Positions 3,897 to 35,778 of a stretch of DNA of 57,203 nt are shown here, piece by piece. Source of the DNA: an uncultured Granulosicoccaceae bacterium (GTDB taxonomy: Bacteria > Pseudomonadota > Gammaproteobacteria > Granulosicoccales > Granulosicoccaceae); NCBI GenBank assembly GCA_938003855.1, contig CALKXD010000109.1, positions 1 to 57,203 of the forward strand, read 5' to 3'. Below the pieces are notes generated by a model, which saw only the letters and a list, made by a program, of their open reading frames with translations, did not search any database and was not told the DNA's origin. Each line of letters begins with the position of its first letter. Position 1 is the first letter of the stretch. The position numbers and the translations under genes are program-made.

Positions 3897-6266
3897 ATGG
3901 TTTTGAATAATTACGTAATCTGGTTTGATCAACTCGGTATGGATGATGTTGCTGTGGTTGGTGGCAAGAATGCCTCTCTGGGCGAAATGATAAGCAACCT
4001 GTCTAATGCCGGCATAAAGGTGCCTGGTGGTTTTGCCACCACAGCCGAAGCGTTCCGTGCGTTTCTGGCGCACAACAATCTTGATCGGGATATTAACGCG
4101 TTGCTGGCGGACTTCGATGTTGAAGACGTGGACAAACTGACCGAGTTGGGTAGTCGTATCCGTCAGCGTGTCCTGGACACGCCCTTTCCGCAAGCGCTTG
4201 AGAAAGACGTGAGAGAAGCCTACGCGAAGTTACAAGCCGATAGCACAGCAGAGATTTCCGTGGCTGTGAGGTCCTCGGCGACGGCCGAAGATCTGCCGGA
4301 AGCCTCTTTCGCGGGGCAGCAGGAGACTTTCCTGAACGTAGAGGGAATCGACACGGTCTTAATGCGTATTAAAGAGGTGTTTGCATCACTCTATAATGAC
4401 CGTGCTATTTCTTATCGGGTGCATCAGGGCTTTGATCATGCCGATGTAGCGTTGTCTGCGGGAATTCAGCGTATGGTTCGCAGTGATGTGGGGGCCAGTG
4501 GTGTGCTTTTTTCAATTGATACCGAAACCGGGTTCGAAGATGTTGTGTTTATTACTTCGTCATGGGGCTTGGGTGAATGCGTAGTGCAGGGGTCTGTTAA
4601 TCCGGACGAGTTCTATGTACACAAGCATACCCTGGCTCAGGGTAAACCTGCGATTGTGCGGCGTAACCGCGGCAGCAAGCGTATAAAAATGGTGTACGGT
4701 GACAGCGTTGCTGTTGAAACTATAGATACCACGGAGGTAGAGAGAATGATGTTCTCTCTGACCGATGCTGATGTCACCTCACTTGCCGAAATGGCTGTGA
4801 CCATCGAAAAGCACTATGGCCGGCCGATGGATATCGAGTGGGGCAAAGATGGCAATGACGGTGCGCTGTATATATTGCAGGCGCGTCCGGAAACCGTAGA
4901 ATCCCGCAGCGATAAAAATGTTATCCGGCGCTACTCGCTTAACCAGAGCGACTCGACAGTGTTGGTGACCGGTCGCAGCATCGGACAAAGAATCGGCGCT
5001 GGTAAAGTGCGTAACATCCCCAGTCTGGATCAGCTTTCCAAGGTACAGGACGGTGATGTGCTGGTCACCGATATGACTGACCCTGACTGGGAGCCAGTCA
5101 TGAAGCGTGCGGCGGCTATTGTCACAAACCGTGGCGGGCGAACTTGTCATGCGGCAATCATAGCGAGAGAACTGGGTGTGCCCGCAGTTGTGGGTTGCAA
5201 TAACGCGACTGAACTACTCGAAGATGGTCTGGACGTGACGGTAAGTTGCGCCGAGGGGGATACCGGTAAGGTGTATCAAGGGCAGTTGAAATACGACGTC
5301 AATGAGATAAAGCTCGATAAACTCCCGGATCTGCCCTTTAAAATTACCATGAATGTTGGCAATCCGGAACGTGCGTTTGATTTTCAGCGTCTGCCTAACC
5401 ACGGGGTCGGGTTGCTGCGACTGGAATTTATGATCAGCAATACCATTGGCGTACACCCCAAGGCGCTGTTGAACTACGAAATGATGGAGGAGCCTGTAAA
5501 AGCGAAAATCAACGAGCGCTACGCGGGTTATGACTCACCCGTCAGGTTCTATGTGGAAAAGCTGGTTGAGGGTGTCGCAACACTTGCCGCCGCATTTGCC
5601 CCGCATCCGGTCATTGTGCGAATGAGTGATTTTAAATCTAATGAATACGCCAACATGATTGGTGGAGATCTGTTCGAGCCCGACGAAGAAAACCCGATGA
5701 TCGGCTTTCGTGGCGCGTCACGCTATATATCATCGTCCTTTCGTGAGTGCTTTGAGCTTGAATGCGAAGCGCTTCGAAAAGTGCGCGATGAAATGGGTCT
5801 GACGAACGTATGGATTATGATTCCGTTTGTTCGCACGTTGCAGGAAGCCGATGACGTACTGCAACTGTTGAAGGAAAACGGTCTTGAGCGTGGTAAGAAT
5901 GGCCTTAACATCGTGATGATGTGTGAGGTGCCCAGTAATGCCATACTCGCGGAAGAATTCCTCGAGAAATTTGACGGGTTTTCAATTGGTTCAAATGATC
6001 TCACGCAGTTGACCCTCGGTCTGGACCGGGATTCCGGATTGATAGCGCATTTGTTTGATGAACGGGATCCTGCCGTAAAGAAAATGCTCGCGTTAGCTAT
6101 CTCTGCTGCCAATAAAGCGGATAAGTATGTTGGTATCTGCGGGCAGGGACCATCAGATCATCCGGATCTGGCAAAGTGGTTGATGGAGCAGGGTATATCA
6201 AGTGTCTCTCTGAATCCGGATACCGTTGTTGAAACGTGGTTGTTTCTGGCCGGTGAGTCGGTCTAG
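3897..6266 (+). CDS. ppsA: phosphoenolpyruvate synthase
   Basis: This 789-residue cytoplasmic enzyme converts pyruvate, ATP and water to PEP, AMP and phosphate, the first step of gluconeogenesis from three-carbon compounds. Three domains are visible: an N-terminal ATP-grasp nucleotide-binding region beginning G-G-K-N-A-S-L-G-E (22-30), the central swivelling phosphohistidine domain with G-G-R-T-C-H-A-A (catalytic His418, target Thr416 for PpsR), and the C-terminal PEP/pyruvate TIM barrel ending with V-G-I-C-G-Q-G (Cys748). Length matches E. coli PpsA (792). The start is supported by alignment; the purine-rich AAGAG just before the ATG is unusually close for a ribosome site. The neighbouring divergent ppsR confirms identity. 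Confidence 0.97.
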
Positions 6267-32845: not shown

Positions 32846-33652
32846 TCAGCCCTGACCGCGATACAGATCATATCGGGTGTTCGGCGATCGAATATCACCG
32901 ACACGCCGGTGGCCGGGCAGGGGTGGGGCACGCAGTGGCCGCTTTACCACCACGCGTGATCTCGCGGTGGCGATAGCGGCAGTCAGTAAATCTGCTTCGT
33001 CGTTCTGATCATCGATACCCCGCGGCAGTACCCGTTGCAGGATCTGCATGCCTTTTTTAGCGGCCGCTCTCTTTTTGTTATCCGGGTACATCGGGTCGAG
33101 GTAGACGGTTGTCGGTTTGTCTGGTCGTGACCAGCAGGCGGGTAGATCGCGGCTGTCGAGATGGCAGGCGGTCATGCGTTGTGCGATGTCGCGGGTGTCG
33201 CTGCATTCACGCGCTCGGCGCAAGCCATCCTGCAGTAACGCAAAAACGATTGCTGAACGCTCCAGCAATAAGACCTGGCAACCCAGAGTGGCAAATACAA
33301 ATGCGTCGCCGCCGAGCCCGCCGGTGGCATCGCAAACCGATGGGCAATCATCCGGTTTGATGTTCATGGCGCGAGCCAGCGGCTGTCCGAAACCTCCACC
33401 GAACTGACGGCGATGTCGATGCCTGCCCTGTACAAAGTCAACACAGATATCTGCTGGCTGACGGGTGCTTTTATCCCGCAGTAGCAACCGCCCATCCAGC
33501 CACAGCAGGCAGAACGGTGCTGCGCCGATGGCGTCACCTTCAACCATCGACAGGTTGGTCTGGTGGGCGAGATGCTCGGCCAGCATTTCCGTAGCCGTTG
33601 TGCGGGCAATCACTACCTCAGGTGTTAGCTCGGAGACTGTTGCCTGGCTCAT
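32846..33652 (-). CDS. rsmJ: 16S rRNA (guanine1516-N2)-methyltransferase
   Basis: RsmJ methylates G1516 of 16S rRNA. The 268-residue product has the SAM-binding motif V-C-D-A-T-G-G-L-G-G-D-A (near 105), the acidic end of the next strand in L-L-L-E-R-S, and the catalytic-loop sequence Y-L-D-P-M-Y-P (near 187). These are the family signatures and the length is normal. It is divergent from the Rieske-derived gene at 33716. Confidence 0.94.
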   Translation of the reverse strand: MSQATVSELTPEVVIARTTATEMLAEHLAHQTNLSMVEGDAIGAAPFCLLWLDGRLLLRDKSTRQPADICVDFVQGRHRHRRQFGGGFGQPLARAMNIKPDDCPSVCDATGGLGGDAFVFATLGCQVLLLERSAIVFALLQDGLRRARECSDTRDIAQRMTACHLDSRDLPACWSRPDKPTTVYLDPMYPDNKKRAAAKKGMQILQRVLPRGIDDQNDEADLLTAAIATARSRVVVKRPLRAPPLPGHRRVGDIRSPNTRYDLYRGQG

Positions 33653-33715: not shown

Positions 33716-34447
33716 TTGAGTGTCACGATTCAAAATAATGAGGTGCGATGGCTGGCTGTAGTGTCTGCAATGAATGCGCGCGGTTTGCGGTTTCCATTGG
33801 CTGCGCGATACGTATATTCTTGTCGGCGTCATTCTGCAAGTCAATGGTCGAGAGCTGTTTTGCCACCTGAAAGTCTACCCGCTGATAACCCGCGCCGGCT
33901 CGCTCTGCGACTGTCGGTGAAGATCATGCTTTGGCTGGCTGTGCTAATGACCGTCTGGGTACTTTTTTCACCGTTTGGCAGGGAGACGCAAACCAGACCT
34001 CTTTCCGAGCAGATCAGTTTTCCGGTAGGCGATATGCAGATCGGCGAGGTACGGATAGTGGAGTGGCTCAGCAAACCATTGATTATTGTGCGCCGATCAA
34101 GTGCGCTTGAAGCGCAATTGATCGCAGCCGACGAGGTGCTGTATCGGGATCCGCTCAGTCAGGCATCGGTGCAGCCCGAGTCAGCCCTGAATGCACAGCG
34201 CTCACACACCGACAACTGGTTTGTCGCGCTGGGGCTGGGTACCGGGATGGGTTGTGCGTTGACCTATAAGCCAGCTGCAGCGGAAATTTTTCAGGGTAAG
34301 CCCTGGTCAGGTGGCTTTGTCGATGGCTGTGATGCGGCACATTATGATCTGGCCGGTCGTGTGTACGCTGATCAAAAGGCCCGACTTAACCTGACCGTGC
34401 CGGTGTGGGAGCTGGTGGATCAGCAACTGGTGCTGAAGCCGCAGTAA
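33716..34447 (+). CDS. PetA-derived Rieske-fold protein lacking all cluster ligands
   Basis: The C-terminal 140 residues clearly derive from the Rieske subunit of the cytochrome bc1 complex (PetA): V-E-W-L-S-K-P-L-I-I-V-R-R, then the two ligand loops and H-Y-D-L-A-G-R-V-Y. In PetA the loops read G-I-C-T-H-L-G-C and C-P-C-H-G-S. Here they read G-L-G-T-G-M-G-C and D-G-C-D-A-A. Both Cys and both His ligands of the 2Fe-2S cluster are gone, but the two cysteines that form the structural disulfide remain. One transmembrane helix (K-I-M-L-W-L-A-V-L-M-T-V-W-V-L-F) precedes the domain, as in PetA. The N-terminal 60 residues are unfamiliar and the start is uncertain: a TTG at 33716 with GGAG upstream is chosen; the frame opens at 33677. 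Function unknown. Confidence 0.78.
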   Translation: MSVTIQNNEVRWLAVVSAMNARGLRFPLAARYVYSCRRHSASQWSRAVLPPESLPADNPRRLALRLSVKIMLWLAVLMTVWVLFSPFGRETQTRPLSEQISFPVGDMQIGEVRIVEWLSKPLIIVRRSSALEAQLIAADEVLYRDPLSQASVQPESALNAQRSHTDNWFVALGLGTGMGCALTYKPAAAEIFQGKPWSGGFVDGCDAAHYDLAGRVYADQKARLNLTVPVWELVDQQLVLKPQ

Positions 34448-34466
34448 CCTGTTATTCGAAGTCCAC

Positions 34467-34667
34467 TTAGTAGTGCGGAGGCGGTGGTTCGTCAGCGAGA
34501 TTGGCGATCGGCGTGTCGAGCGATTGCAGCTGTGCGCGGTAAGCATCAACCTTCTGCAACAACTGCTCGATTGTTTGCTCGTGGCGGATAATCACCTGGT
34601 TTAGTTGCTCCACAGCCAACTCCATATCCATCAGTTTCAGTTCAACTGTCTGTAGACGAGATTCCAC
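34467..34667 (-). CDS. slyX: SlyX family protein
   Basis: This 66-residue protein is a single coiled coil (V-E-L-K-L-M-D-M-E-L-A-V-E-Q-L-N) ending with the family hallmark P-P-P-P-H-Y. SlyX has no known function. It lies 61 bases downstream of the MreB-like gene on the same strand and is probably co-transcribed with it. Confidence 0.92.
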   Translation of the reverse strand: MESRLQTVELKLMDMELAVEQLNQVIIRHEQTIEQLLQKVDAYRAQLQSLDTPIANLADEPPPPHY

Positions 34668-34728
34668 TGGTTATTTGCCCACCGCTATAAAACACCAGTC
34701 TATGTCGAAGTGTCGGTGTCGGCAATGG

Positions 34729-35778
34729 TCAAGCAGGTTGGGCGACAGGGGAGTCGTCGTAAATGCGGGAAAACAACACTCCGCATCCTGTCACGGTGGT
34801 GGTGGTCGGTTGCCTGGCGATCTCGACCGGTACTGTGGTGGCTTCCATCACCAGTTGATCAATCTGCGCCAATTGTGCACCACCACCCGTCAGCATGACA
34901 CCGTGCTCTGCCAGGGTTCCCTGCAGTGAGTCAGGCAGGTCAGCGATGGCGCTGTTAATTGAAGCTGACAACCGGTGCATGGTGGTTTGCAGTATTTTAC
35001 CGATGCTTTCGGTACTGACCCTGAAGCTCAATTGCTGATTGGTGGCAATCTCCAGGCCGCTGAGCAGGTACGACGAACCCACTTGCGGGCTATAGCCGGC
35101 CGGCATAGCGTTGCCAACCTGGTGTTTTACGTTGCGTGCCTCGCTGGTCGTGACTAAAACGCCGAACTGACTGCGGATGCCATCGACGAGTTGCTGATCA
35201 AGGTAGTCGCCGCCACAAAACAATGATGTGGCGGCGATGATCTCATCGTTGTCAACCGCATACACGCGTGAGCCGCGACTGCCAAAATCGATCGCCACTG
35301 AGGGATTTCGCTGCTCTGTTTCGGCGGCTAGCCCGAGGGCGATGGCCATACCATTGTCGAGTTGATGGACTCTCGAGGCACCGGCATCGAAGCAGGCCCG
35401 GTGCAGCTGTTCGGCGAGTAACGAGTCAATGCCGCAGGGGAGTGTCAGAGCTATCTGTGGCTTGCGTGCGATCAGTTTCTGCTTGATTGATTTTTGTAGA
35501 AAATTGCTGAGCATGGCGGCGCTGTAACCGAGATTGTTGCGTGTGTCGGCCTGCAGAGGGTTGATCAGCCGCAGGCCCGCAGGTGACTTCTGATACTGTT
35601 CGATGGCGGCGTGCCCGTAACAGCGGATGGCTCGATGGTCAGCGTGCATGGTGTCGAGATCAAGCAGTGCAACAGAGGGTGCGTCCATCAGCACCCCATT
35701 GGCCGCACAGTAAAACCGTGTGGCGAATGCACCCACATCAATGGCAACACCATTGGTGCGAGAAAATCCTTGTATCAT
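34729..35778 (-). CDS. divergent MreB-like actin homologue
   Basis: The 349-residue protein aligns end to end with MreB, the actin-like scaffold of lateral wall synthesis, but is strongly diverged. The phosphate-1 loop D-L-G-T-A-N-T of MreB reads D-V-G-A-F-A-T (15-21), and phosphate-2 D-I-G-G-G-T reads D-F-G-S-R-G-S. The adenosine motif L-T-G-G-G-A is kept (near 307), as are N-G-M-A-I-A-L-G (the E-P-M-A-A-A-I-G region) and the C-terminal V-P-V-E-I-A-R-Q-P. The usual N-terminal amphipathic stretch is short. It sits divergent from gatCAB, exactly where mreBCD is found in many gammaproteobacteria, but mreC and mreD are missing; slyX follows instead. It may be the organism's MreB under relaxed constraint or a paralogue with a different role. 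Nucleotide hydrolysis is doubtful. Confidence 0.82.
   Translation of the reverse strand: MIQGFSRTNGVAIDVGAFATRFYCAANGVLMDAPSVALLDLDTMHADHRAIRCYGHAAIEQYQKSPAGLRLINPLQADTRNNLGYSAAMLSNFLQKSIKQKLIARKPQIALTLPCGIDSLLAEQLHRACFDAGASRVHQLDNGMAIALGLAAETEQRNPSVAIDFGSRGSRVYAVDNDEIIAATSLFCGGDYLDQQLVDGIRSQFGVLVTTSEARNVKHQVGNAMPAGYSPQVGSSYLLSGLEIATNQQLSFRVSTESIGKILQTTMHRLSASINSAIADLPDSLQGTLAEHGVMLTGGGAQLAQIDQLVMEATTVPVEIARQPTTTTVTGCGVLFSRIYDDSPVAQPA

Follow-up and report, generated by a model that had tools for sequence, protein, structure and literature searches.

The window (the whole stretch of DNA that was analysed, 57,203 nucleotides, contig CALKXD010000109.1 of an uncultured Granulosicoccaceae bacterium) harbors a gene that lies outside petABC, between rsmJ and slyX, and whose predicted product resembles PetA, the Rieske iron-sulfur subunit of the bc1 complex. 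The features of this locus, in the coordinates of the window, are as follows:

32846 to 33652, minus strand: rsmJ-like 16S rRNA methyltransferase gene, a divergent neighbour whose position is conserved in several families
33860 to 34447, plus strand: likely coding sequence of the putative cluster-free PetA paralogue, delimited by orthologue ends and upstream in-frame stops
33890 to 33979, plus strand: predicted single N-terminal membrane helix (residues 11-40 of the model, by DSSP), Leu-rich and not Tat-like by hydrophobicity and motif counts
34238 to 34255, plus strand: former ligand box I, reading GTGMGC where the aligned PetA has CTHLGC, with a disulfide Cys at 34253-34255
34322 to 34348, plus strand: former ligand box II, reading DGCDAAHYD where the aligned PetA has CPCHGSRFD, with a disulfide Cys at 34328-34330

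The divergent neighbour is one that we take to be rsmJ from a reading of its sequence. On the other side, a small slyX-like frame that was not listed (about 34460-34700, minus strand) converges on the paralogue, with only a few bases between the two ends.

An earlier, sequence-only reading of this DNA had placed the gene at 33716-34447. Its frame is indeed open through 34447 and reads ...VALGLGTGMGCALTY...GGFVDGCDAAHYDLAGRVY, but the start at 33716 is doubtful, since alignments with orthologues begin only at about residue 42-57 of the frame called from there, and since several of them have an in-frame stop just upstream. Translation probably starts instead at a TTG at 33860, or at another start near the membrane helix, and the frame as first called is probably 48 codons too long. 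The residue numbers of the protein given below (C132, C157 and so on) count from this TTG.

The predicted protein is matched by TIGR01416, the NCBIfam equivalog model for the bc1 Rieske subunit, with E = 2e-23, and by bc1 Rieske chains of the PDB with E values down to 4.8e-22, a degree of sequence similarity that puts its homology to PetA beyond chance and bears out the descent that the sequence-only reading had proposed; a Pfam search with the same protein gave no match. The genome also holds a canonical petA, found on contig C17, where it adjoins petB (cytochrome b). Aligned with this same-genome PetA, the loops of the window protein read GLGTGMGC and DGCDAAHYD against GICTHLGC and FFCPCHGSRFD, such that the four 2Fe-2S ligands (C, H, C and H) are replaced by G127, G129, D155 and D158, with none of the four left, while the Cys pair that forms the structural disulfide of PetA is present as C132 and C157. 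The replacement of all ligands together with retention of both disulfide Cys, as it had been read from the letters, is thus confirmed.

An AlphaFold2 model of the protein, started from the TTG at 33860 and aligned with 20 relatives, reached a mean pLDDT of 90.5, a confidence that partly reflects the well-known fold to which these relatives belong. The model comprises a helix at residues 11-40, in agreement with the single membrane anchor that had been noted before, followed by the Rieske sheets, with the three antiparallel sheets and the cluster-binding subdomain that define the fold all present in the prediction. Foldseek matched it to bc1 Rieske chains over its full length, including the anchor (8smr_Z, E 1.1e-15, TM 0.77, 185 columns), and VIA-align superposed it on 7yr9_A (TtPetA) with Z 22.4 and an rmsd of 1.8 over 143 residues. 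The window protein is confidently predicted to adopt a Rieske fold from end to end.

A search of 143 genomes revealed orthologues throughout Granulosicoccaceae, and an intact orthologue with the same ligand loss, its loops verified by sequence, was found in 38 of 48 genomes of this family (a count that leaves out the fragmentary G042 and the second matches of G029, G031 and G039). Six of the 48 apparently hold a canonical-like match alone, suggesting that the job of the paralogue is dispensable in places. When 369 gammaproteobacterial genomes were scanned with a DNA pattern of the altered box II, 16 further carrier genomes came to light in 11 other families (f20, f33, f52, f57, f81, f85, f87, f107, f123, f127 and f135), among them the named species Ectothiorhodospira mobilis, E. 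marina and E. shaposhnikovii. Two pattern matches were rejected: neither genome, G264 or G313, yields a second full-length member when searched with alignment A1, and the match in G264 has a stop codon inside the motif. The window gene ranked first when 120 genomes of the phylum were searched with a profile, and all 26 other sequences that were read from this search had canonical ligands. The nearest congener of the window genome is Chromatiales bacterium (ex Bugula neritina AB1) AB1-2. The cluster-free paralogue is kept intact in more than 50 bacterial species; its orthologues share the ligand loss within the family and outside it, as well as the Cys pair, and a sequencing error in the loops, which would have undone the original claim, was tested and failed, the altered loops occurring in more than 50 independent genomes. 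In one assembly the gene occurs twice, on separate contigs (L011, G017:C149, and L043, G017:C474) and with about 91% identity between the copies, representing either a duplication or mixed strains.

The replacements follow a pattern, as seen when 56 aligned members are compared position by position with 54 canonical PetA proteins. Gly takes the place of the first Cys ligand in 49 of the 56 members, and Asp that of the second in 50; the first His position is Asp in 33 and Gly in 12, and the second is Arg in 33 and Asp in 17. No member keeps a Cys ligand, and a single one (L100) keeps both His. Of the P-A-P in the Pro-loop, which hardly varies among the 54 canonical proteins, the members mostly keep no more than the Ala. 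The disulfide Cys pair, by contrast, is invariant in both sets (56/56 and 54/54), and also in all 41 sequences of alignment A1. An apparently strong coupling between the residues at the former His sites (D with R, G with D) comes down to only 4-5 independent pairs, with a median p of 0.5, and carries no claim here.

Such invariance could suggest that the Cys pair serves as a redox switch or a thiol relay, making the paralogue a periplasmic disulfide-active protein built on a Rieske scaffold, all the more as these are the sole two Cys in 44 of the 56 aligned segments. We regard this as very unlikely: the same residues form the structural disulfide of ordinary Rieske proteins, so no new role is needed to account for them, and they lie in separate loops and form no CXXC motif. 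It is similarly far-fetched, in our judgement, that the former site binds another metal or a small ligand through its new Asp residues. We know of no metal or ligand site that is composed of this set of residues, and the frequent Arg at the second His position would better fit a salt bridge, even though Asp is nearly fixed in place of the second Cys, most members have another acidic residue where one of the two His used to be, and the empty site of TtPetA can hold ZnCl2 via its two Cys ligands (PMC10492824). In the yeast Rieske protein the cluster is largely stable after removal of the disulfide (PMC3119413).

Two unusual members were observed along the way. L100 (G131:C5, about 3976-4827) is the distant member with both ligand His and no Cys ligand (GPHYGC / YDPCHD); it seems to be secreted rather than anchored, and is possibly an intermediate or the bearer of a mononuclear metal site. 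L094 (G079:C281, 3683-4852) joins ankyrin-like repeats to a cluster-free Rieske-like domain whose N-terminus is signal-like.

The paralogue is under purifying selection. dN/dS values of close pairs, calculated by NG86, were 0.13 (L019/L020), 0.17 (L019/L026), 0.12 (L012/L014), 0.14 (L072/L107; 0.26 by YN00), 0.15 (L127/L135) and 0.12 (L011/L043), i.e., about 0.1-0.25 and well under 1. The one observation that would fit a decaying pseudogene or an assembly error is that the paralogue evolves faster than PetA, the window genome and AB1-2 being 64% identical in the former but 92% in the latter; yet the frames are intact across the carrier species, selection constrains them, the replacement residues are themselves conserved across members, which decay would not bring about, and the place beside rsmJ is conserved in several families. 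This explanation, to which we give next to no credence, is refuted, and the argument against random decay put forward in the sequence-only reading holds on the same grounds.

The N-terminal anchor and the hinge have changed along with the cluster site. When the 56 members were compared with 40 canonical PetA proteins, a Tat-like RRx[FLMIV][LIVMT] motif was found in 13 members versus 39 of the canonical proteins; the Gly+Ala share of the helix was 0.19 versus 0.46, its mean Kyte-Doolittle hydrophobicity 2.37 versus 1.88, and the hinge motif AxGAP was present in none of the members versus 31 of the 40. Rieske proteins are exported by Tat because their cluster is loaded in the cytoplasm, and the h-regions of Tat signals are Gly-richer and less hydrophobic than those of Sec signals (PMC7317946). 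With presumably no cofactor to load in the cytoplasm, the paralogue is probably inserted by Sec/SRP and not by Tat, as its helix suggests. A protein that has ceased to carry electrons would be expected to lose the cluster, the hinge and the Tat features together, as seen here.

Trees built from 88 and from 110 proteins placed the cluster-free members on one side of a branch, with SH-aLRT values of 98 and 89. Because several distant members had long branches, a single origin is likely but not certain; it is supported by rsmJ being the common neighbour across families: it lies beside the paralogue in nearly all Granulosicoccaceae loci, in f107 (Ectothiorhodospira), in f127 and in f87 (tblastn). 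rsmJ is no operon partner of the paralogue, as the gene is divergent in the window but convergent in E. mobilis. In f52 the neighbour is presumably SohB, judging from its sequence. Farther along the window, an mreB-like gene (34729-35778, minus strand) lies beside gatC, with no mreCD seen next to it; a search of the whole genome at E 1e-5 found no match besides the gene itself, and its counterpart in AB1-2 shares just 56% identity, which is unusually divergent for MreB.

No petABC, bc1 or oxidase operon was found beside the paralogue in the loci read, a point that bears on whether it might still be a bc1 protein, namely a non-redox accessory subunit, an assembly placeholder or a competitor at the Rieske position that regulates the assembly or activity of the complex. 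We consider this possible but unlikely. In its favour, the paralogue descends from PetA, has the same length and topology, and finds its best full-length structural match in the bc1 Rieske protein of Pseudomonas aeruginosa; moreover, all 16 carrier genomes outside Granulosicoccaceae, each at least 90% complete, encode a canonical petA. However, 117 of the 143 relatives have a PetA-like match anyway, making this co-occurrence weak evidence, and the surfaces that have changed are the very ones that dock to bc1: the cluster tip, the Pro-loop, the hinge and the Gly/Ala-rich helix. Yeast points both ways, in that a study there, as far as its citation in PMC3119413 tells, addressed the import, processing and bc1 assembly of a cluster-less Rieske protein, whereas assembly of the Rieske protein into bc1 is impaired when cluster insertion fails (PMC3119413). 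Only tentatively, then, might one think of a dedicated bacterial pseudo-Rieske protein, comparable to a pseudoenzyme, that would bind bc1 or intermediates on its assembly pathway, regulating this assembly or acting as its template.

The account that we favour, and hold to be probable though by no means secure, is that an ancient petA duplicate became a disulfide-locked, redox-inactive and probably Sec-inserted periplasmic module that acts by protein contacts. petA would have been duplicated anciently in Gammaproteobacteria, and the copy would have lost its 2Fe-2S site and been retained for a non-redox job. One helix, inserted probably by Sec/SRP, would tether the paralogue in the inner membrane, the C132-C157 disulfide would close the periplasmic Rieske domain in place of the cluster, and the former cluster tip would have turned into a polar surface (mostly Gly, Asp, Asp and Arg/Asp). 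With a polar tip, and with the mobile Ala-rich hinge gone, the most likely role would be that of a fixed protein-protein contact module, serving some inner-membrane complex as an accessory factor or in its assembly. We infer the lack of cofactor, the disulfide state, the Sec route and the contact function alike, and the structural job suggested by the sequence-only reading appears compatible with the data.

Compared with known systems, the paralogue resembles PetA (TIGR01416; 8smr chains C/Z, 7yr9) in length, in its single N-terminal membrane helix, in the Rieske fold and in the disulfide Cys pair, and shares with gammaproteobacterial PetA an insert with a conserved QP and RS; it differs in lacking the cluster ligands, the Pro-loop, the Tat-type anchor and the Ala-rich hinge, and in lying outside petABC. 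E. coli NirD likewise has a Rieske fold with neither ligands nor cluster, but it is a cytosolic nitrite reductase subunit of a different subfamily and has no membrane anchor. The closest solved fold is that of Zn-bound, putatively immature TtPetA (7yr9, PMC10492824), also a Rieske fold solved without a 2Fe-2S cluster, which unlike the paralogue retains all four ligands and is still able to take up the cluster.

None of the HMM libraries searched contains a dedicated family for the cluster-free paralogue, and no description of it was found in the literature searched (most subscription journals being outside its scope). Pfam, searched with 41 members, returned nothing but one weak, unrelated match, whereas TIGR01416 matched all 41, with full-length homology. 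The window gene scores 84.4 bits with this model, under its cut-off of 97.4 bits, while four of eight other distinct members scored singly pass it: L124 (L101 is the same gene, from E. mobilis), L125, L013 and L027. As half of those scored lie above the cut-off, such members are probably named bc1 iron-sulfur subunits by NCBI, and hence misannotated. Some cluster-free proteins are taken for functional respiratory subunits by NCBI's bc1 Rieske model, and counts of petA copies in genomes may therefore be wrong.

Rieske proteins are textbook electron carriers, and in this family evolution apparently reused one of them as a plain membrane-tethered protein module. Its members have lost the cluster site along with the Tat anchor and the mobile hinge but have kept the fold and the disulfide, and the family thus offers a natural experiment on the purpose of each of these features. 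It fits the idea that PetA needs Tat export solely for the sake of its cofactor, and makes that idea testable.
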